A model generated the notes under the pieces. The model searched no databases, was not told the DNA's origin, and worked only from the letters and a program-made list of their open reading frames with translations. This document shows positions 17,236 through 49,716 of a DNA stretch of 64,000 nucleotides, one piece after another. This DNA comes from Ensifer adhaerens (lineage in GTDB: Bacteria > Pseudomonadota > Alphaproteobacteria > Rhizobiales > Rhizobiaceae). The stretch spans positions 1,364,001 to 1,428,000 of the forward strand of contig NZ_CP118610.1 of assembly GCF_028993555.1 (NCBI RefSeq). The letters run 5' to 3'. Every line of letters begins with the position of its first letter. Within the stretch, counting starts at the first letter, position 1. The translations under genes were made by a program, and so were the position numbers.

Positions 17236-17370
17236 CCGAAAAACAAACAACGCTCGCTGGGGGAGGAGATCCAGCGAGCGTCGCTTTGTTCTGATCGGCA
17301 ACCGGGAGGAGGAGTGTCGCCGATCCAAATCGAGGGGCGCTGGGAGGAGGAGTGCGCCGCCCCGATCGAT
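17236..17370 (-). ncRNA. alpha-r14 (NfeR1)-type small RNA, copy A
   Basis: Read on the minus strand, this stretch folds into three consecutive hairpins, each with a CU-rich loop containing CTCCTCC. The stems are 17334-17339 with 17358-17363, 17293-17299 with 17319-17325, and 17250-17260 with 17271-17281. The last stem is followed by TTGTTTGTTTTT, an intrinsic terminator. Three anti-Shine-Dalgarno loops are the hallmark of the rhizobial alpha-r14 family (NfeR1 in Sinorhizobium meliloti), a trans-acting regulator linked to osmoadaptation and nodulation efficiency. The ends are estimated from the structure. A similar RNA lies 153 bases upstream on the same strand. Confidence 0.82.
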
Positions 17371-17522: not shown

Positions 17523-17652
17523 GTTAAAAACAATAACGCCCGCTGGGGGAGGAGGTCCAGCGAGCGTCATTTGAAGTGATTGGCAACTGGGAGGAGGAGT
17601 GTTGCCAATCTGATCGGGGGAGCGTTGGGAGGAGGAGTACGCTCGCCCGAAT
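17523..17652 (-). ncRNA. alpha-r14 (NfeR1)-type small RNA, copy B
   Basis: This is a second copy with cleaner folding than copy A. On the minus strand the stems are 17615-17625 with 17639-17649, 17578-17587 with 17601-17610 (a perfect 10 bp), and 17536-17546 with 17557-17567. Each loop carries CTCCTCCC or CCTCCTCCCCC. ATTGTTTTTAACC follows the last stem as terminator. The loops are conserved while the stem sequences differ from copy A with compensation, which supports real RNA structures. The position upstream of tig is similar to that reported for the tandem S. meliloti copies. Confidence 0.87.
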
Positions 17653-17951
17653 TCTGTCGGGTTTTACCCGGGTCTTTCCCAGTATCCTGAGGCGGTTGAC
17701 CTTTTCCGCTGGCGACCGTCTGGCTTGCTGCCTTCGTTCGCCTTTGATGATTTGAATATAGGGTCTTTAAATCGATTTGTGCAGTGCAATATCCGCATGG
17801 AAGATATGCGCATTGCGCAAGCCGTTCATCAGTCCCTGGCGGCGTGGGGCCGCAGTCGCGACAGAGCGATTGTATTTCCGCGCCGATACGTGATTAGTTG
17901 GTGACGGAACCGGATCAATTCAAGCATCGGATTCTTGAGGCTGGGGGCAGG

Positions 17952-39582: not shown

Positions 39583-39942
39583 CGATTTGTTGCCCCCACG
39601 AATCACGACGGCTCCAGTGGCAGGTGGCCAACGAAATGGCGCATCCACTTCTCCTGAGGGAGAAGCGGTCCAGTCGGCCGCATTTTCCCCGCCGCCTCAA
39701 TCTGCACATTAGAAAAGAATAATATGGTGAAGCTAAAAAGCCGTTAAGCTACCCGGTCTGGCGCTACCGGGCTAGATCTGCCTTGACCTGCAGGCGGAAG
39801 TCGTGGCTGCTCTATGTGCCGTCAAGGCTGCAAGCTGCCGCGCAATTGGACCCTGGCGCTGCTGTTCCAAGAGGTTGGAGGCTTCGAACACGGGTGGTAT
39901 ATATTCTCAAACCATCATATAAGAGAGCGGCGGGGAAGGCGT
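39583..39942. promoter_or_regulatory. Intergenic region upstream of the YcaO-TfuA operon
   Basis: 360 bases between divergent genes. The middle (39712-39745) is AT-rich and is the likely promoter zone. A 6-bp dyad CCCGGT/ACCGGG (39752-39757 with 39766-39771) lies downstream of it and could be an operator or a weak hairpin. An in-frame extension of the downstream gene to 39814 lacks a ribosome binding site; GGGGAAGG before 39943 decides the start. Confidence 0.5.
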
Positions 39943-42900
39943 ATGCTCGAAAGTCGGGTCAACAATCCACGACAACCGACGAGACCTTCGGGACGCAAGG
40001 GACGCCTCTCCGAATATGGAGGCGAGCGGCGGATCGTCACCGCCCTTTGCTATGATCTCGTCGGGTCGACGAGACTCCTCCACCTCCTCGATATAGAAGA
40101 CTACCAGGAGCTGATCGTTGCGTTTCAGAATGCGGCGAAACACGCGATCATCTCGCATTCCGGCGTCATGCAGCTTGAGGCTGGCGATGGCGGCGTGGCG
40201 CTCTTTCCGATCGAGCTGGGCGCCAAGGATGCCGCATCACTTGCCATCCGGGCCGGTCTCGCGATCGTCGAAGGATGCGCGGGCGTTGCCCGGGAAACCG
40301 GGCGCGACGACTTGCGCGTTCGCGTCGGGATTGCGACATCCGTCGCGCTCATACAAGAGACGCAGGAGGAGAAGGGGGAACCGGTTACCGGTGCCGCACT
40401 GGCTATCGCCACCCGCCTGGAAGAGATTGCCGACCCGGACAGCGTTTTTGTTTCGGAGGACACGCGCGACCTGGCTGGCAGGTCGCATGCTTTCGTGTTC
40501 GAAGGTGCAAGGACGCTCAAGGGCTTTACGGTGCCCGAGAAGGTATGGCGTGCACTCGGGCACAAGATTGATGTCGACAGGTTCTACGCTTTCGGTAGCC
40601 TCGGCGGCCCCTTCATCGGCCGCGAAAGCGAGTTGAACACGATCGCGGGCTGTTGGGAAAAGGTTCGCACGCAGGGTGGCGAAATCCTCGTGCTCGAAGG
40701 CGATGCAGGCATCGGAAAATCGCGGCTTCTGCGGGAGATTCGCAAGATGACGCGCGACCGGCGATCGGGACTGTACTTCTTTCAGTGCCTGCCAGGCGGG
40801 CACCGCTCGACGTTGCATCCCCTGTTGAACAGTCTTATGGGCGCCACGTCTGGACAGGACGATCAACTGGGCCTGTCAGCCTCCGCCGTAGCGACCCCCT
40901 TTGAACGAAACGGCATTCGCGACGCCGAAACGATTGAAACATTCGCCTATTTGCTGGGTGCGCTCGGGCGAAATCAGCGTCTCGCCGACAACGACCCCAA
41001 AGCCATTCGGGGAAGGGCTCATCGCGCCGTGTTTCGCGCACTCGCCGCCTTGTGCGCGAACGGGCCGATCGTCCTGGCTGTCGAAGACATCCACTGGATC
41101 GATCCAACCTCCCGGGATTTGCTGGTGGAGGCCGCTCGGGTTGCACGCCAACTTCCGATTCTCCTTGTCACGACCTCACGTCCCGGGTTTGCGTCGGATT
41201 GGCTCGACGCGGCCAACCCCACGCGGCTGACGTTGCTCCCGCTTGATCGTGACGAAACTCGGCGGGCGATAGAGGCAAGATGGCCGGAGCAGAGGCAGGC
41301 CATGCTGCCTGAGCTCTACGACGTTATCGAAAGGATATCCGGGGGCGTACCGCTCTTCATTGAGCAAATCTGCCAATGGGTCTCGGAGAACGTTGCCGCA
41401 GACACTATGAGCCTGTCGGAAAACGTTAAACCCAGCCATGTGTCGGCATTCGAGGAAATACTGGATGCGCGCCTCAACCACCTGGGTACGGCGAGAGACG
41501 TGGCGCGAGCGGGAGCAGTTGCGGGCAGCCGGTTCACGCTGTCGTTGCTGCGCGAACTTCTGCCGGGGCTCGGCAAGAAGTCTCTGGCCAAGGCTGCCGA
41601 TACCCTGAGTGATTCAGGGTTCCTGATGCGGATCAGGACGCGAGGGCATATCGCCTACGGCTTCCGGCACGTTTTGATTCAGGAAACGATCTACAACGCA
41701 CTCCTGCGCAGGCAGCGGCAGGCATTGCATCGGCGGCTGTTCGTTGCTGTCAGTAAAAACCGCCAAATGGCCGCTTGGATGGACACCGGAACGCTCGCCG
41801 AACATGCGGAACGAGCGGGGTTCATTGAAAATGCAATCGAATTGTACACGGCAGCGGGCAAGGAAAGCTCGAGCCGATCGGCCATGGTCGAGGCGCGCAA
41901 CTATCTGGAGCACGCCGTGGAGATTTGCGATCGTTTCGGCGAGGGACATGCGATCGAAACACTTCAGCTATCCGCGCTGACTTCGCTTGGCCCAGTTTTG
42001 ACCGGTCTTGTCGGCCTGAACTCACCTCCGGCCCGCAAGTTGTATGAAGACGGCGTGGCCATTGCCCGCCGGCAACCGATGGAAGAGCAATCCAGATGGT
42101 TTCCGATCTATTGGGGGTGGTGGCTCACGGGAACAGACTTTCGCGTTATGCGCGAACGCGCTCTGCAAGTGCGGGCCATGCAGTCGGGCACGGAAGATCC
42201 CGAGATCAAGCTTCAGGTCAACCATTGCAGCTGGGCCATCGATTTTAACCTCGGCCACCATCGGGAGGCTCAGGATGCGATCAAGGCCGGACTGGCGCTT
42301 TATGATGAGCAATCGGCGAAAACCAACAGAACGCTATTTGGCGGCCATGACGCCAAGGTGTGCGGCCTAGGGCAATTGGCCCTTTCGCTCTGGCTGACAG
42401 GACAACCGAAAGCCGCGGATAAGGCGCTTTCAAAGATGGTCGCGTTCGTTGACCGGATATCACACGCGCCCAGCAAGGCGCATTCGCTCGATACGGAAGC
42501 GGTGTCTGCCTTCTACCGGGACGACTTTGGTCGTCTCACCGAAATCTCCAAGAGAATGGGAGACTTCGCGAGATCGCATGAAATGCAGTCGCTATCCGGC
42601 CTGTCGCTGCTCTTTACTGGATGGGCTCTCGCGCATAGGGAAAGCCTCGCAAGCGGGCATGCGATGTTTCGCGAGGGCCTATCGCTCTTGAGAAGCCTCG
42701 GTGTCGTCGCAGATCTCCCGATTTATCTCTACATGCACGCCACGCTGCTCGGGCAAGCTGGCAACTATCAATCAGCACTCGAGGTCACGAATGACGCGAT
42801 CGAAAAGGCGAGGGAAACCGGTCATGCCTATTGGCTCGCAGAGCTCTACCGTCGCCGCGCCGTTCTTCAGGCGCGGGTCAGCACCACAAAGGATCCCATC

Positions 42901-43011
42901 ATCCTCGATCTGCTCTCAGCCGTAGATATCGCCGAGAGACAAGGAGCAAAGGCACTTCTAAGACGGGCGAGACACTCAATGCAGGAGCTTGGCGTTGCCG
43001 TCCAACGTTGA
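39943..43011 (+). CDS. Class III nucleotide cyclase-like / AAA ATPase / TPR regulator
   Basis: A 1022-residue multidomain protein, soluble throughout. Residues about 25-205 are a class III adenylate/guanylate cyclase homology domain with both metal aspartates (D38 in CYDLVGSTRL, D82 in EAGDGGVALFP). The Asn expected in the GxxVNxAxRL segment is replaced by Ala (GAALAIATRL, A154), so catalysis is doubtful. A STAND/AAA-type ATPase follows: Walker A GDAGIGKS (253-260), Walker B VLAVEDIHWID (377-387). The C-terminal 450 residues look like TPR-type helical repeats. It overlaps the ycaO start and heads the operon, so it probably senses a signal or drives the modification system with ATP. Confidence 0.85.
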   Translation: MLESRVNNPRQPTRPSGRKGRLSEYGGERRIVTALCYDLVGSTRLLHLLDIEDYQELIVAFQNAAKHAIISHSGVMQLEAGDGGVALFPIELGAKDAASLAIRAGLAIVEGCAGVARETGRDDLRVRVGIATSVALIQETQEEKGEPVTGAALAIATRLEEIADPDSVFVSEDTRDLAGRSHAFVFEGARTLKGFTVPEKVWRALGHKIDVDRFYAFGSLGGPFIGRESELNTIAGCWEKVRTQGGEILVLEGDAGIGKSRLLREIRKMTRDRRSGLYFFQCLPGGHRSTLHPLLNSLMGATSGQDDQLGLSASAVATPFERNGIRDAETIETFAYLLGALGRNQRLADNDPKAIRGRAHRAVFRALAALCANGPIVLAVEDIHWIDPTSRDLLVEAARVARQLPILLVTTSRPGFASDWLDAANPTRLTLLPLDRDETRRAIEARWPEQRQAMLPELYDVIERISGGVPLFIEQICQWVSENVAADTMSLSENVKPSHVSAFEEILDARLNHLGTARDVARAGAVAGSRFTLSLLRELLPGLGKKSLAKAADTLSDSGFLMRIRTRGHIAYGFRHVLIQETIYNALLRRQRQALHRRLFVAVSKNRQMAAWMDTGTLAEHAERAGFIENAIELYTAAGKESSSRSAMVEARNYLEHAVEICDRFGEGHAIETLQLSALTSLGPVLTGLVGLNSPPARKLYEDGVAIARRQPMEEQSRWFPIYWGWWLTGTDFRVMRERALQVRAMQSGTEDPEIKLQVNHCSWAIDFNLGHHREAQDAIKAGLALYDEQSAKTNRTLFGGHDAKVCGLGQLALSLWLTGQPKAADKALSKMVAFVDRISHAPSKAHSLDTEAVSAFYRDDFGRLTEISKRMGDFARSHEMQSLSGLSLLFTGWALAHRESLASGHAMFREGLSLLRSLGVVADLPIYLYMHATLLGQAGNYQSALEVTNDAIEKARETGHAYWLAELYRRRAVLQARVSTTKDPIILDLLSAVDIAERQGAKALLRRARHSMQELGVAVQR

Positions 43012-44233
43012 ACCAACGAGGCGGAAACCCGACGATCCGTCAAATCTTCAGCGGATGCTTGCGCGTTTTCGCGACGCCATACTTGCTGGCTTTAGCAATC
43101 CGCTTTCTCCCCCCGCGAACCTTGAAGAAGCCGAGCAATGCTTGCGCACGATTTTACCGCTTTGCCGTCGTACGGGCATAACCCGGCTCGGTGATCTGAC
43201 TGGACTTGATCGGCTCGGGCTTCCGGTTGTTCAAGCCGTTCGACCCATCGCCCTCTCTGAAGTCTCGTCGCTGGGGCGGGGCTTTTCCATGGTGGCAGCG
43301 GCAGTGGGGGCAGTCATGGAATCGCTTGAGCGGTTCTACGCCGAAGCCATTCCCTCCGAGCGAGTATTTTTCACAACGGCGGATGAACTCAAGATCGCGG
43401 ACGGCCTGTTTGACAATCTCCTGGCACTTGATCGCCGGGGGAACTGGCGGGCAAGGACGATACCCTGGATCACCGGCATCGACGTCGCTACCGGGTTCTC
43501 ACAATCGATCCCCCTGGAGCTTGTTCACACGTGCTACACGGATCCGCCGCCCGCCCATGATGGTCTATTCATGCGCACGACCACGGGGCTCGCCTGTCAC
43601 ATGACGGTTTTCGACGCGTTCCTGCATGGATTGTTCGAATGCATCGAGCGCGACGCTATCGCTCGCGCCTTCGCCACCCACGGCTTCTTCGATCGAATGC
43701 GCATTTCCCCACTCGGGCTGGGTGACGGAGTCGAGCACATACTTTCCATTGCGGGCAAGCACCATATTTCCTTCGGCCTTTGGCTAGCCTCTTCGCCGGC
43801 AGATGTCCCGGTGGTCTGGTGCCAGACAATCGAGACGGGCCCCGGCGAACCGATCCTTGCTCTTCCGACCGAGGGCTATGCGGCGGGACCGAGCATCGCT
43901 GCGGCAGCGGAGAGCGCGATGCTCGAAGCGCTGTCAGCACGGGCCGGGGCGATATCGGGTGCGCGCGACGACCAAACCCGGCGGCATTATAGACGCAGCA
44001 CCGATTTGATCGTCGCCAAAGCTCGCCAACTCATTCTTGCGGACACGTCCGGCTTGCCACGGCCGTCAATTGAACCGTGCGCCGTTTCGGATCTCGGCGC
44101 GCTTATCGGCAGGGTCATATCCGCCGGCATGGGGCCCATATTGGCTGTGCCAGTGGGAGCGGACGTCGAAACAGGCGTTCAGTGCGTGAGGACCATCCTT
44201 CCCGGAGCCAGCCCCTTTTTGATCGTGCGGTGA
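42989..44233 (+). CDS. YcaO domain protein
   Basis: A YcaO-family ATP-dependent amide-backbone-activating enzyme of about 414 residues. The unusual YcaO nucleotide-binding acidic motifs are visible: AVMESLERF (E111, E114), GLFECIERDAI (E217, E220) and AAAESAMLEAL (E308, E313). YcaO enzymes phosphorylate a peptide backbone amide, leading to azolines, amidines or, with TfuA, thioamides. No ThiF-like partner or Ocin domain is present. The C-terminus (ILPGASPFLIVR) lacks the PxPxP end of azoline-forming enzymes. The start is uncertain: TTG 42989 or 42995 overlaps the cyclase-like gene, while ATG 43055 would shorten it. Confidence 0.9.
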   Translation: MALPSNVEPTRRKPDDPSNLQRMLARFRDAILAGFSNPLSPPANLEEAEQCLRTILPLCRRTGITRLGDLTGLDRLGLPVVQAVRPIALSEVSSLGRGFSMVAAAVGAVMESLERFYAEAIPSERVFFTTADELKIADGLFDNLLALDRRGNWRARTIPWITGIDVATGFSQSIPLELVHTCYTDPPPAHDGLFMRTTTGLACHMTVFDAFLHGLFECIERDAIARAFATHGFFDRMRISPLGLGDGVEHILSIAGKHHISFGLWLASSPADVPVVWCQTIETGPGEPILALPTEGYAAGPSIAAAAESAMLEALSARAGAISGARDDQTRRHYRRSTDLIVAKARQLILADTSGLPRPSIEPCAVSDLGALIGRVISAGMGPILAVPVGADVETGVQCVRTILPGASPFLIVR

Positions 44234-45015
44234 GTGTTCACATGGTCGATGCGAGCGAGAAGGGGCCGATCCTGGTGTTTCTTGGTCCGACGCTTCGGCT
44301 GAGCGAAGCGGAGCCGGTTCTCGACGCCATCTACCTGCAGCCCGCCGCGCAAGGCGACATTCTGCTTGCAGCCCACGCATTCCGGCCGCGTGCGATGGTC
44401 CTGATCGACGGGCAATTCGAGGACAGGCCGGCTGTCCGACACAAGGAAATCCTCTGGGCGATGGCGCAGGGGATCGTCGTGATCGGCGCGGCAAGCATGG
44501 GCGCGCTCAGGGCGGCGGAACTCAGTGAATTCGGCATGATCGGCGTCGGTCTGATCTACAGGTGGTATCGGCGCTGGCGGCTTGCTCCCGATGATGCGGT
44601 CGCCGTTCTTTCGGGACCGCCGGAGCTTGGCTTTCTTCCTTTGACAGACGCACTGGTCGATCTCCAACGGACGTTTTCCACCCTGACACGCCGGAATTTC
44701 ATATCGGCCGCCGAGTGCACCTCGCTCACCACAACGGCGCGGAACATGAACTTTCGAGAACGCCGGTTCGAAGCGATTTTACGGGATGCAGGATGGCAGG
44801 AGGAGGGGCTCAAACAATTGCGGAAGGAGATAGTGGGGCAAAAAAGACGGGACGCTCTGCATGCACTGCGAATCGCGCCAACCCTCGTGCTGCGGGAAGA
44901 TGCAGCGCGGGTGAGGGGGAAGGACGCATGGGTTGCAACGAACACCTTCGTGCGTGATCTAGAGGCGGGCGGCATTGACTCAAAATTAGTAAACACTTAT
45001 AAATTGAATCCTTAA
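44230..45015 (+). CDS. tfuA: TfuA-like protein
   Basis: A 261-residue TfuA-family protein. The core reads ILVFLGPTLRLSEAE near the N-terminus, RPAVRHKEILWAMAQGIVVI, and GAASMGALRAAEL, the family hallmark. TfuA, first met in trifolitoxin biosynthesis, assists YcaO in thioamidation, and may help deliver sulfide. The start GTG 44230 overlaps the ycaO stop; ATG 44242 is an alternative. The tight coupling to ycaO strongly supports a joint function. The last 20 codons become AT-richer, matching the shift towards the low-GC gene downstream. Confidence 0.9.
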   Translation: MSVHMVDASEKGPILVFLGPTLRLSEAEPVLDAIYLQPAAQGDILLAAHAFRPRAMVLIDGQFEDRPAVRHKEILWAMAQGIVVIGAASMGALRAAELSEFGMIGVGLIYRWYRRWRLAPDDAVAVLSGPPELGFLPLTDALVDLQRTFSTLTRRNFISAAECTSLTTTARNMNFRERRFEAILRDAGWQEEGLKQLRKEIVGQKRRDALHALRIAPTLVLREDAARVRGKDAWVATNTFVRDLEAGGIDSKLVNTYKLNP

Positions 45016-45051
45016 ATCCCGGATTTTCAATCGTGGGGGGGCATATGTTCC

Positions 45052-46236
45052 ATGCGTCTGGTGCGCGACGATGCCCCCGAGTCCGGAAATGCGCGTGTCG
45101 GCACACGCTTTTGGATTTATCCGCAGCCTCCGTTCATTCCCGGATACGAACAGCCCGATCGTGTGTGGCTATCGATACCGCGCGACGAAATCGGTGAGGG
45201 CCCGAGCGACGTCTCCATGTATGTGGCGGATCCGCTCTATGACAAGCGGCCCTATGGCCTTGCGGGCTTGCCGCCATTCGGGGGGGCGAAGCGCGCGCCG
45301 GTGGGGCCTGGTCCGGACCGTCACTTCGATAACATCGATCCAGCCTCCCGTCCATTTCTTGCTGTTCACGCCTACGCCTGCGTGCGTTTTGTTCTCGACA
45401 TTTGGCAAAGTTATTTGGGGCGCCGGGTCCACTGGTTCTTCGATCAGACCTTTCCAAGGCTAGAAATCGTTCCATTTGTCGATTGGGACAATGCTCAAGC
45501 GGGCTACGGTTTTCTGGAACTGGGTTGGTCCGACGTCGATGGCATCCTGAGACCTTACGCGTTGAATTTTGACACGATCGCGCACGAGGTCGGGCATCTG
45601 ATCATGCTCTCGGAGACGGGTCTGCCAACAGTGACATCGCCTGATGGTGACTTCTTTTCGTTCTCCGAAGCTTTTTCGGACTCTGTTTCGCTGATCTCGT
45701 TCCTGCACTTTGATTCCGCGATTGACCGGCTTTTGCGGCGAACGAGAGGCAATCTGCTGCTCTACAATGAATTGAACCGCTTTGCGGAAACCAGCCCCGA
45801 AACGCAGATCCGTCTGGCCACCAATTTTCGGCGAATGTCCTCAGTTACCCGCGAGGTGCACGACCGCGCGCTGCCGTTCGTTGGCGCAATCTTTGACAGC
45901 ATCGTTGCACTTTATCATCGCGATCTGGTCGCGAACGGTTGCGCCGACAGGCGGCTTCTGGATGTCGATATTCGGGATCTGGCGCGGGACGAATTTGATA
46001 CGTTTCGTCAAGCGACGGCGGAGGCATTCAGCAAGAAGCCTTTATATTTCAAGTTGGCACTGATCGCAGCGCGCGACGCCGTGGGAGCAGCGCTAGCAAC
46101 CTCATTAAACAGGCTTGACCTGAACTCGCTGCGCCTTGAGCAGGCGGCAGAGGCCATCGTCACTGCGGCGAACGGGGCGGCGGCCGAACTGCTCGAAGAG
46201 AATTTTGCCTGGCGCGAAATCACCGCTTCTCGGTAA
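45052..46236 (+). CDS. Putative zincin metallopeptidase (gluzincin-like)
   Basis: A 394-residue protein with a zinc-protease active site: IAHEVGHLIML (H178, E179, H182), then FSFSEAFSDSVS with E206 24 residues later. The SEAFSD segment resembles NEAISD, where thermolysin-type enzymes place the third zinc ligand. No signal peptide is visible, so it is likely cytoplasmic. I do not recognise a named family outside the active site. It starts 36 bases after tfuA and ends 16 bases before the low-GC gene. A natural reading is leader-peptide removal or target cleavage in the YcaO-TfuA system; that is inference. Confidence 0.78.
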   Translation: MRLVRDDAPESGNARVGTRFWIYPQPPFIPGYEQPDRVWLSIPRDEIGEGPSDVSMYVADPLYDKRPYGLAGLPPFGGAKRAPVGPGPDRHFDNIDPASRPFLAVHAYACVRFVLDIWQSYLGRRVHWFFDQTFPRLEIVPFVDWDNAQAGYGFLELGWSDVDGILRPYALNFDTIAHEVGHLIMLSETGLPTVTSPDGDFFSFSEAFSDSVSLISFLHFDSAIDRLLRRTRGNLLLYNELNRFAETSPETQIRLATNFRRMSSVTREVHDRALPFVGAIFDSIVALYHRDLVANGCADRRLLDVDIRDLARDEFDTFRQATAEAFSKKPLYFKLALIAARDAVGAALATSLNRLDLNSLRLEQAAEAIVTAANGAAAELLEENFAWREITASR

Positions 46237-46252
46237 GTCAAGGGAGGAAAAA

Positions 46253-46915
46253 ATGAGTGGTTGTTACGCGAATCCTGTTGTTGGAGATGTGCAGGAACTG
46301 AAAGATAGAATTGACTACAAATCTTATAGACCGGGTGATGTTCGGCTCTATGGAAGGCCTGCAAAGCTATATGAAAAAAAGAAAGATGGTAAATATATAA
46401 AGGACAATTTGGACGATATCGAGAAGAAACTAAAGAGCATAGGAAATAAGGATGTGGCTGATGATGTAGGCAGTATAATACTAAAAATTATAGAGTATAT
46501 GATGGGTAGCTCTGGTATTGTTGGTGACGGAGTGACGGTTGCTGTGTTTGATGGTGATTGTTATAGTTTTCTTCCCGTCAGCATGAATGTGCCCAAGAAT
46601 TACATTAATAGTATTGGTGTAATTTATGGCTATGCCTATGAGGGGCATTGCTACAAGTTGCCGAAACCGCAGATCATGTGTCTATCTGAAAGACCGTCAA
46701 AAATCCTCAAGGGCGATTGCGGCTGTGATTGTGGGTTTGACCCGGCATTTGGATATGCTGTTTGGTCGATCGACAAGCTTGAACGGGCCATATCTCTCGA
46801 CATCCGTGCTGACGATCTAAAGACGCTGGTGCTGGACGAAAACCTGCCAGGCAACCGGTCGCCGCTCGCCTATGCGCAGACGATGGCGTTGGCGCCACAA
46901 CGGAACCGAGACTGA
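46253..46915 (+). CDS. Low-GC cysteine-containing hypothetical protein in the YcaO-TfuA operon
   Basis: A 220-residue protein with no family I recognise. Codons for about residues 1-136 are strongly AT-rich, unlike every neighbour; the last third returns to GC-rich usage. Seven cysteines occur at 4, 103, 133, 143, 156, 158 and 160, the last three as KGDCGCDCGFD. The first 65 residues are charged and helical-looking (DLEKK-like repeats such as NLDDIEKKLKSIG). AGGGAGGAAAAA gives an excellent ribosome binding site, 16 bases after the peptidase stop. It is the best candidate for the modified substrate or a target/immunity protein of this system; it could also be an unrelated passenger. Confidence 0.75.
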   Translation: MSGCYANPVVGDVQELKDRIDYKSYRPGDVRLYGRPAKLYEKKKDGKYIKDNLDDIEKKLKSIGNKDVADDVGSIILKIIEYMMGSSGIVGDGVTVAVFDGDCYSFLPVSMNVPKNYINSIGVIYGYAYEGHCYKLPKPQIMCLSERPSKILKGDCGCDCGFDPAFGYAVWSIDKLERAISLDIRADDLKTLVLDENLPGNRSPLAYAQTMALAPQRNRD

Positions 46916-46945
46916 CGGGGCGCACTTCTATTGGAGGAGGGCTCA

Positions 46946-47068
46946 ATGCCTGCACCGGTGATTTCCCAGCGTTCCAGGTTGGCAACTGCGCGGTTGCGCC
47001 CGACCGCACGGACTTATGCGATGAAGCGACGAGGTTCTCGTTTTGTGCGTTTAGATGGTGTTGTCTAA
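46946..47068 (+). CDS. Small basic ORF (40 aa), possible precursor peptide
   Basis: An ORF of 40 codons, 30 bases after the low-GC gene and on the same strand. GGAGGAGGG lies six bases before ATG 46946, the strongest ribosome binding site in the operon. The product begins MPAPVISQRSRLATARLR and ends RFVRLDGVV; it has about ten Arg/Lys and no Cys. A strong translation signal on such a short frame, last in a YcaO-TfuA operon, is what a precursor peptide gene would look like. The peptide matches no family I know, so a chance frame cannot be excluded. Confidence 0.45.
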   Translation: MPAPVISQRSRLATARLRPTARTYAMKRRGSRFVRLDGVV

Positions 47069-47399: not shown

Positions 47400-48425
47400 T
47401 CAGGCAGTCATGCCGGCGGACCGGTCAAAAGATTCGCCGGTTGTCAGCATTCTATGCATTATCACCGATAGCTTGCGCGCCACAGCAACTGCCGCTCGTT
47501 TGAAGCCGACCTTCTCTCTGAGCTTCATCCCCCAGGCACGAAGTGAACTGTCAGCATGGGCCCGGGTCAGGATCACCGTAGCGGCCTCATAAAGGAGGCC
47601 ACGCAGATGACGATCTCCCCGCCGAGAGATGTGGCCGTCATAGTCGACTTCCCCGGACTGATACCGTCTTGTTGTCAGTCCCAGCCATGCTCCCACCGAC
47701 CGGGAGATTCGGAAGTTTTTCGGATCCTCTATCGCCGCAACAAAGGAGGCGGAAGTCACCGCACCGATCCCGGGAATGGACTTCAGTACCTGACATGCGT
47801 CGCTCCGCCGTGCCATAGTGACGAGCTGACGATCAAGTTGCGCAGCGCGGCCTCGGATACTACGCCAAGCCTCGAGAAGGGGCAGGATGATCTGTTCTAA
47901 GGCCGCATTGCTAGCCAACAGATTGCGTACATTCGCCGCAAATACCAAGCCACTAGCTTTGGACACGACCAGCCCAAACGTCTTCATAACCCCACGGATC
48001 TGATTGGATAGCTCCGTCATGATCCCGATGAGCTTGGTGCGCGCGGTCACCAATGTGCGGATAAGCATGCTGTCATAGCCCTTCACGCGTACCTCGCGGT
48101 AGAAGCCGACCTCAGCCAGCTGTGCCAAGCCGTCGGCGTCTTTGGCGTCTGTTTTGTTCGGGGCCATGTCGAGCGCGGCCTTGGCATGGCGGGCGTCGAT
48201 ACAGATTGCCGGAAGCCCTTCTGCGCTCAGCGCATGATAGAACCACACAGACAAAGGACCGGTCTCGAACACCACCCGCTCTGCTGCCGGTGCGCGCTGG
48301 CGGATCACCTCTGCGAGCAGCTTCGGATCGGATGGGCATTTGCCGCGCCAAATCCTCTTGCCATCGCGCCGAACAGAAATCGCTGTCTCTTTCAATGACA
48401 CGTCGAGGCCGATATATTCGCTCAT
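47400..48425 (-). CDS. IS110-family transposase, copy 1
   Basis: A 341-residue DEDD transposase. The N-terminal RuvC-like domain begins MSEYIGLDVSLKETAISV (first Asp), with VVFETGPLS, and DAKDADGLAQL carrying further acidic residues. The C-terminal domain has the conserved SIPGIGAVTSASFVAAI helix-hairpin region and SVGAWLGLTTRRYQSGEVD, with the catalytic Ser within that region. IS110 elements lack terminal inverted repeats, so the ends of the element cannot be set by eye. GGAGAACAACC upstream of ATG 48425 is the likely ribosome binding site. It appears full length. Confidence 0.93.
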   Translation of the reverse strand: MSEYIGLDVSLKETAISVRRDGKRIWRGKCPSDPKLLAEVIRQRAPAAERVVFETGPLSVWFYHALSAEGLPAICIDARHAKAALDMAPNKTDAKDADGLAQLAEVGFYREVRVKGYDSMLIRTLVTARTKLIGIMTELSNQIRGVMKTFGLVVSKASGLVFAANVRNLLASNAALEQIILPLLEAWRSIRGRAAQLDRQLVTMARRSDACQVLKSIPGIGAVTSASFVAAIEDPKNFRISRSVGAWLGLTTRRYQSGEVDYDGHISRRGDRHLRGLLYEAATVILTRAHADSSLRAWGMKLREKVGFKRAAVAVARKLSVIMHRMLTTGESFDRSAGMTA

Positions 48426-48678: not shown

Positions 48679-49716
48679 ATGAAGCAGTATGCGGGCATCG
48701 ACGTATCATTGGAATACTCGAGTGTGTGCGTGGTGGATGCGGATGGCCGGATCATCATCGAGGCGAAGATCCTCAGCGAGCCGGATGCGCTGGTCGCCTG
48801 GTTCGGCGCGCACGGCGTGGCGATGGAGCGCATTGGTCTGGAGGCCGGCCCGTTGTCGCAGTGGCTCCATGCCGGGATGGTGAAAGCAGGTCTTTCTGTC
48901 GAGCTGATCGAGACGCGCCACGTGCGTGCAGCCTTTAAGACGATGCCGGTCAAGACCGACAAGAAGGACGCCCGCGGCATTGCGCAGTTGATGCGGCTTG
49001 GCTGGTTCAGACCGGTCCACTGCAAATCTCTTGCCGCCCAGGAGGTGCGTGCGCTGCTGACTGCCCGCAAGCTCATTCAGGGCAAGCTTCACGACATCGA
49101 GATGAGCATCCGGGGCATCCTGCGCGGCTTCGGCCTCAAGGTCGGGCCGACGACGCGGCGCACTTACGCGGGACGTATCCGCGCGCTGATTGCCGGCCAT
49201 TCGACCTTGGAAGCGATCGCTACGGCACTGCTCAAAGTGCGCGACGCGCTTGTGCACGAATTTGCAGGGTTTGACCGCAAGCTGCGTGCCATCGCCCGCC
49301 AGGATGACAACGCACTTCGGTTGATGACGACGCCCGGCGTTGGCGTCCTGGTGGCGCTGACGTTTGTCGCGGCCGTCGATGCACCGGAGCGATTCCGCTC
49401 CTCGCGGGCGGTCGGGCCACACTTCGGATTGACGCCGAAGAAATATCAATCGGGCGAGACCGATCATAGCGGTCGCATTTCGAAGATCGGCGATGGGGGT
49501 GTGCGAACCGCGCTTTACGAGGCGGCCAACGTCATCCTGACGCGACCGGTCAAAGGTTCCGATCTGAAGGGCTGGGCACTGGCGGTCGCCAGACGTGCCG
49601 GTCCGAGAAAGGCGCGTGTGGCGCTGGCTCGCAAGCTGGCGGTGGTGTTGCATTGCATGCTCAGGGACAGAACCAACTTCATTGCTCATAAGGGAGCGTC
49701 CGCCCTGCCGGGTTGA
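48679..49716 (+). CDS. IS110-family transposase, copy 2 (different subtype)
   Basis: A 345-residue DEDD transposase, clearly divergent from copy 1. It starts MKQYAGIDVSLEYSSVCVV and includes KTDKKDARGIAQLMRLGWF. TTPGVGVLVALTFVAAVDA and AVGPHFGLTPKKYQSGETDH are the C-terminal domain landmarks. It is in opposite orientation to copy 1, with 253 bases between the two starts. It appears intact. The adjacent, divergent pair suggests that a second element inserted next to, or into the flank of, the first. Confidence 0.93.
   Translation: MKQYAGIDVSLEYSSVCVVDADGRIIIEAKILSEPDALVAWFGAHGVAMERIGLEAGPLSQWLHAGMVKAGLSVELIETRHVRAAFKTMPVKTDKKDARGIAQLMRLGWFRPVHCKSLAAQEVRALLTARKLIQGKLHDIEMSIRGILRGFGLKVGPTTRRTYAGRIRALIAGHSTLEAIATALLKVRDALVHEFAGFDRKLRAIARQDDNALRLMTTPGVGVLVALTFVAAVDAPERFRSSRAVGPHFGLTPKKYQSGETDHSGRISKIGDGGVRTALYEAANVILTRPVKGSDLKGWALAVARRAGPRKARVALARKLAVVLHCMLRDRTNFIAHKGASALPG

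Follow-up and report, generated by a model that had tools for sequence, protein, structure and literature searches.

What does a YcaO enzyme modify when it is encoded, together with TfuA, in an operon that also carries a large ATPase and a zincin? The question is posed by a 64,000-nucleotide stretch of the Ensifer adhaerens genome (NCBI RefSeq assembly GCF_028993555.1, contig NZ_CP118610.1, positions 1,364,001 to 1,428,000; hereafter the window, in whose numbering all positions are given). We propose, with a probability of about two in three, that this operon directs the biosynthesis of a thioamidated ribosomally synthesized and post-translationally modified peptide (RiPP) that is built on a large folded leader, and that the fifth gene very probably encodes the precursor. 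The operon consists of five plus-strand genes (39943-46915), and neighboring genes overlap or lie 8-36 bases apart:

39943..43011, + strand: cyclase-homology/AAA_16 (STAND-like)/TPR protein (P0001), 1022 amino acids from its ATG, in an open reading frame (ORF) that opens at 39814; assigned from Pfam and NCBIfam.
42989 (or 42995)..44233, + strand: YcaO; Pfam PF02624.
44242 (likely ATG)..45015, + strand: TfuA, with its first in-frame start at 44077; Pfam PF07812.
45052..46236, + strand: zincin (P0004), a gluzincin with an M4/M36 thermolysin-like predicted fold; assigned from HExxH, a downstream Glu and a structure model.
46253..46915, + strand: probable RiPP precursor, 220 amino acids, first described as a "low-GC Cys protein"; assigned from 116 homologues, their alignment and its position after the zincin.
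46838..46912, + strand: proposed core peptide, residues 196-220, ENLPGNRSPLAYAQTMALAPQRNRD, with the PGNRSPLAY motif at 46847-46873.

Do these genes form one system? Loci were collected through zincin matches: zincin-bearing stretches came from 40 of the 44 other zincin genomes of the host's family (all except G051, G065, G089 and G150), and a second set held the best 80 of 206 zincin relatives in a named-genome scan, a set biased to close relatives because only the best 80 were kept. Together with the window these make 121 loci; nine are present in both sets, which leaves 112 distinct zincin ORFs. All five genes stand in one order on one strand in 104 of the 121; another 15 have YcaO, TfuA, zincin and precursor without the large ATPase, L065 has the full set except for a precursor above the threshold of the hidden Markov model (HMM), and L070 has zincin and precursor alone. 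For loci picked through the zincin, this arrangement is beyond chance, and the five genes are inherited together as a single YcaO-TfuA system, zincin and cyclase-like ATPase included, as an earlier note on the window had supposed. That note had also named ycaO-tfuA pairs without the flanking genes as evidence against a single system; such pairs do exist (of 20 TfuA loci picked for their lack of the zincin, 18 also have a YcaO in the stretch covered), and the answer to that test is mixed. The note's operon had a sixth member, a 40-codon ORF (46946-47068), and here it went too far: not one ORF of at least 30 residues in the 120 other loci is related to it below E = 0.08, neither Pfam nor NCBIfam gives a match at E ≤ 1, and we therefore place the end of the system at 46915.

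If the five genes belong together, which product is the substrate? The modification substrate is very probably the product of gene 5, judging from the anatomy of its family. By HMM, the gene for a family member follows that of the zincin at 120 of the 121 loci; at the remaining one, L065, an ORF seen by eye downstream has a similar leader followed by (SRAMMQ)n repeats. Neither gene 5 nor the zincin has a convincing Pfam or NCBIfam match, and other members of the alignment give scattered weak ones. In the alignment, a motif at the N terminus is followed by a hypervariable middle, then by the conserved leader domain (residues ~117-195) and finally by the core tail at the C terminus. In the window this tail is a single PGNRSPLAY...APQRNRD; the motif PGxR[SANPT]PxxY (PGxR-x-PxxY) recurs in 95 of 95 distinct single-core loci, whose tails are 21-30 residues long from the motif and carry either APxR (51) or H[RK]xx[RK][LIM] (44). 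Distant members have the same leader domain, with tandem repeats where the tail stands in the others: the units (VSGAR, VSGAK, MNARG, ANARG, SAGSFVR, GRSSG-like and SRAMMQ) mostly contain one basic residue each, and they occur in 17 distinct loci (L056-L072), 16 recognized by script and L065 by eye. An array of (VSGAR)n is also found in G374, a genome from another order of the class. With tails and repeats removed, hhalign matched window-type leaders (58 rows) to repeat-type leaders (16 rows) at a probability of 93.3% (E = 2.8e-7), and leaders of the second single-core type (46 rows) to the repeat type at 97.4% (E = 9.5e-12); a simple rule decided where each repeat-core leader was trimmed, and five of them (L058, L066, L070, L071 and L072), trimmed at the wrong place, were kept in the comparison. 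The matched domain stops at VLD/LLL, just ahead of PGNR or of the repeats. By these profile alignments the single-core and repeat-core leader domains are homologous, and a common leader, followed by a core that can be swapped and is at times repeated, is the layout of a RiPP precursor. Gene 5 is also of low GC, as first noted, at 0.474 and 0.406 in two 500-base windows over its first half. Across the 105 of 121 loci for which the comparison was measured (16 were skipped), GC drops in the hypervariable middle (46361-46600 in the window) relative to the conserved 3' part: this holds for 62 of 68 loci of the best-80 set (means of 0.474 for the middle and 0.565 for the 3' part) and for 16 of 23 among L033-L055.

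What chemistry might this substrate receive? The earlier identifications of YcaO, TfuA and the large ATPase hold, with Pfam scores of 164.7 bits for YcaO (PF02624, cut-off 25.7), 141.2 bits for TfuA (PF07812, cut-off 30) and 75 bits for AAA_16 in P0001. For both YcaO and TfuA, the best NCBIfam match is a model from the McrA-glycine thioamidation pair (TIGR03266, 112 bits; NF033432 ThioGly_TfuA, 173 bits), which supports a thioamide reading, and both scores fall below the cut-offs of 365 and 235.2. YcaO also matches MJ1094 in the PDB (E = 8.9e-8), and its glutamate pairs ExxE and ExxER are kept in at least 95% of 120 cassette YcaOs. We therefore regard YcaO as a probable ATP-dependent thioamide-forming enzyme and TfuA as its probable sulfur-delivery partner; TfuA is found in order in 120 of 121 loci and beside YcaO in all 120 cassettes that have one. 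Could YcaO instead make azolines or amidines? All three chemistries are known for YcaO enzymes, according to PMC4603692 and PMC8442711, and Ser or Thr is present in 95 of 95 single-core tails. Cys, however, is absent from all 95, TfuA is the constant companion of YcaO, and neither a ThiF-like (E1-like) partner nor a dehydrogenase of the nitroreductase/flavin mononucleotide (FMN) type is matched in Pfam or NCBIfam among the six ORFs and nine neighboring ORFs, which agrees with the earlier note and sets the cassette apart from the azol(in)e RiPPs (LAP/TOMM). We judge azolines or amidines very improbable.

Trees were built from 34 chosen cassette loci of the 121, with 18 non-cassette YcaOs added to the YcaO tree. 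There, 15 of the 18 non-cassette YcaOs group together (94/93) and three fall elsewhere, and those of the cassette fall into two sets, of 24 (100/99) and 10 (89/94). Neither group is one clade (two changes, forced by supported branches), and the cassette TfuAs are not one clade in a quick TfuA tree (three changes). The source genome (7.77 Mb) has one zincin and two YcaO genes; its second YcaO-TfuA pair (L153, G000:C2:1949524-1951031) has no zincin and no precursor of this family in the 16-kb stretch covered.

What is the role of the zincin? A structure model predicts an M4/M36 thermolysin-like fold, and with this fold in mind we consider it plausible, and indeed probable, that the protein is the leader peptidase. 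Like thermolysin and fungalysin, it has HExxH (residues 178-182; 45583-45597) and a downstream glutamate (E206, from 45667, within EAxxD), and H178, E179, H182 and E206 are invariant in 48 zincin members. Unlike these enzymes, it has no visible pro-peptide and no signal peptide seen by eye, its structural alignments give 10-16% identity, and it lies in a RiPP-like operon; only 3 of the 48 members match Pfam Peptidase_M4 at E ≤ 0.1 (best 0.046), P0004 itself not among them. Is it a protease at all? Passages of PMC12636437 describe zincin-like HEXXH proteins, formerly annotated as metallopeptidases, that are iron/alpha-ketoglutarate enzymes of RiPP pathways, and the lack of a Pfam family for this zincin would fit such an enzyme, which might hydroxylate or oxidatively cleave the tail (as PflC/PosC do) and leave a product with a thioamide and an oxidation. 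We find this alternative improbable. P0004 has no NCBIfam match at E ≤ 1; the alpha-ketoglutarate HEXXH hydroxylases form the InterPro family IPR026337.

The fifth partner, P0001, is a probable sensor or regulator, a role suggested by its domains. Apart from AAA_16, it matches Guanylate_cyc at 19.8 bits (below the cut-off of 21.9) and the TOMM kinase/cyclase fusion TIGR03903 at 293 bits over profile positions 269-1267 (below the cut-off of 705.75); it differs from that fusion in lacking the first ~270 positions of the profile and in being linked to a TfuA-type YcaO. Its orthologue in E. canadensis is annotated at 3072 bp. Among the cyclase domains of the 105 large P0001-type proteins, a YDxVGST-like first metal motif is kept in 95 and GDG[GI] in 97. 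At the position that we take, from class III cyclase motifs, to be that of the transition-state Asn, none of the 80 readable domains has Asn (70 have Ala; 25 domains were unreadable). Of the 121 loci, 105 encode the large protein (the 104 five-gene loci, all single-core, and L065), so that the earlier view of it as part of the system stands for most loci but is not universal: the 16 repeat-core loci without it all carry instead a separate cyclase-family ORF of ~590-690 amino acids, identified by clustering in 14 and by HMM in L057 and L070. This ORF adjoins the precursor gene in 15 loci (on the opposite strand in 11 and the same strand in 4) and precedes the zincin in L070. A comparable cyclase gene of 1875 bp is found upstream, in the same orientation, in R. 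etli CFN42 and R. indigoferae. Rhizobia commonly carry genes of the cyclase family, and the association could therefore be partly coincidence. Two further observations concern these proteins and their surroundings. In L172 (G064), a different YcaO-TfuA pair is followed by a P0001-like cyclase/AAA protein (537 bits) without a zincin. In 6 of the 16 repeat-core loci (L056, L060, L061, L062, L068 and L069), an ORF that by eye resembles a GNAT acetyltransferase lies beyond the ~600-residue cyclase gene; thiovarsolins are N-acetylated, as passages of PMC6511847 report.

How might the parts work together? Gene 5 would yield a 220-residue precursor whose conserved leader domain (about residues 117-195) would be bound by YcaO. 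With ATP, and with sulfur supplied via TfuA, YcaO would replace oxygen by sulfur in at least one backbone amide of the Cys-free C-terminal tail, probably near the invariant Arg202; Gly200 and Asn201 are guesses for the site. The apparently cytoplasmic M4/M36-like gluzincin would then cut the modified tail from its leader, releasing a peptide of ~20-25 residues, and in sister loci would cut repeat arrays into short peptides, while the cyclase-homology/AAA/TPR protein would sense a signal and control the pathway.

Several points weigh against this proposal. When the 51 distinct loci that share the window's type of tail, its own locus among them, are compared with the window, identity averages 0.51 for residues 1-36, 0.20 for 37-116, 0.73 for 117-196 and 0.81 for 197-220; in other words, conservation continues unbroken into the tail, as it would in a functional protein. 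The AlphaFold2 model of the precursor is only moderately confident (predicted local distance difference test score, pLDDT, 65), the third YcaO helix has Ser at the position of Gln in MJ1094, and the cassette contains no transporter gene, as the earlier note had observed. In R. etli CFN42 p42c, R. indigoferae and L070, a cyclase, the zincin and a repeat-tailed relative of the precursor occur with no YcaO or TfuA found nearby, such that thioamidation is either not essential to the zincin-precursor pair or supplied in trans. The sampling matters as well: the family HMMs were seeded from L033-L072 and the window, the loci were chosen by their zincin, and the best 80 of 206 carry the bias described above. 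Might the product of gene 5, then, be a functional protein in its own right, thioamidated but left uncut, with the zincin as client, quality-control protease or partner? The continuous conservation of residues 117-220 and the lack of a transporter would suit such a protein, the best NCBIfam matches are McrA-type, and YcaO enzymes are described as thioamidating intact uL16 at Met82 (in passages of PMC13063428) and McrA (PMC5589413). However, in 17 distinct loci the tail is swapped for short repeats, so a single folded protein makes little sense, and residues 199-210 of the AlphaFold2 model fall below a pLDDT of 50. We consider an intact protein unlikely; tandem-repeat cores favor a peptide product over a modified protein.

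The proposal of a thioamidated RiPP has a precedent in thiovarsolin, from the varA-varY-varT-varO cluster of Streptomyces varsoviensis, in which, according to passages of PMC6511847, YcaO and TfuA turn the Pro-Arg bond within a repeated APR core into a thioamide and repeat number varies among relatives, down to a single copy. The likeness lies in YcaO and TfuA acting on a repeated, Arg-containing core. The differences are considerable; the same passages report no specific protease and a dehydrogenase-like VarO, whereas the system here has a gluzincin and a sensor of the cyclase family, none of the genes tested resembles VarO, the annotated precursors are 131-219 amino acids long (five records), and the APR/GPR repeat core is not in the window tail, its relatives having VSGAR, MNARG and others. 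Could such a system have been overlooked? Passages of PMC8120280 catalogue over 500 Rhizobium TfuA clusters with antiSMASH and RiPPER, and many of the present loci have therefore probably been counted already; sections 11 and 13 and further passages of that paper make no mention of the zincin or of the large precursor. RiPPER seeks peptides of 20-120 amino acids in apparently non-coding regions (passages of PMC6511847), and precursors of 131-219 residues would probably escape it, as they would any RiPP search so limited in size. Among the matches listed in our literature search, titles and the beginnings of abstracts held no published description of this architecture, and the search found no description of a RiPP leader peptidase of this gluzincin type.

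How widely is the system distributed? Among 297 genomes of the host's family, the zincin is found in 45 (E ≤ 0.001), TfuA in 86 and the fifth-gene profile in 29. A sample of 398 genomes of the phylum gave 8 zincin matches, four of them already in the set; the new matches in G460, G304 and G374 retain YcaO, TfuA, zincin and precursor, and a weak match, G581, has no YcaO, TfuA or precursor match within its ~3.7-kb stretch. Hosts in the best-80 set include Ensifer/Sinorhizobium, Rhizobium, Phyllobacterium, Chelativorans, Pseudaminobacter, Mesorhizobium, Stappia, Labrenzia, Microvirga and Aestuariivirga. The zincin is found on 124 plasmid records, 115 of them from Rhizobium; two standard laboratory strains are among the carriers, R. 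johnstonii 3841 with an annotated precursor (RL_RS31025) and S. fredii NGR234 with the zincin. The proposed pathway would tie the maturation of a peptide to a protein of the cyclase family in such plant symbionts. On a Nostoc sp. UHCC 0302 plasmid typed as conjugative (L175), the zincin adjoins two ferritin-like proteins and a radical SAM protein, with no YcaO and no recognizable precursor alongside.

The kind of product, a thioamidated RiPP, is thus known, and what is new is the unusually large leader, the dedicated gluzincin and the cyclase-family sensor; we see a fair chance that the system merits a class of its own. With a precursor named, the orphan operon becomes a pathway that can be tested and gains a candidate leader peptidase. 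A bolder view, for and against which we hold the odds to be even, is that the zincin-precursor pair is the heart of an undescribed modular RiPP class. This class would combine a large folded leader, a tail or repeats exchanged between lineages, a dedicated leader peptidase resembling thermolysin and a cyclase-family partner that seems to be constant, with YcaO-TfuA thioamidation usual but not constant (as in R. etli CFN42, without YcaO), and rhizobia would make intracellular or released thioamide peptides under the control of a degenerate nucleotide-cyclase STAND ATPase.

The surroundings of the cassette hold a few further features. A gene for an oxidase of the flavin adenine dinucleotide (FAD)/berberine-bridge type lies 3.6 kb upstream on the opposite strand, and two IS110-type transposase genes lie directly downstream (47400-48425, - strand; 48679-49716, + strand). 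Elsewhere in the window, two tandem ar14 alphaproteobacterial small RNAs are found at 17245-17370 and 17531-17655 (- strand).

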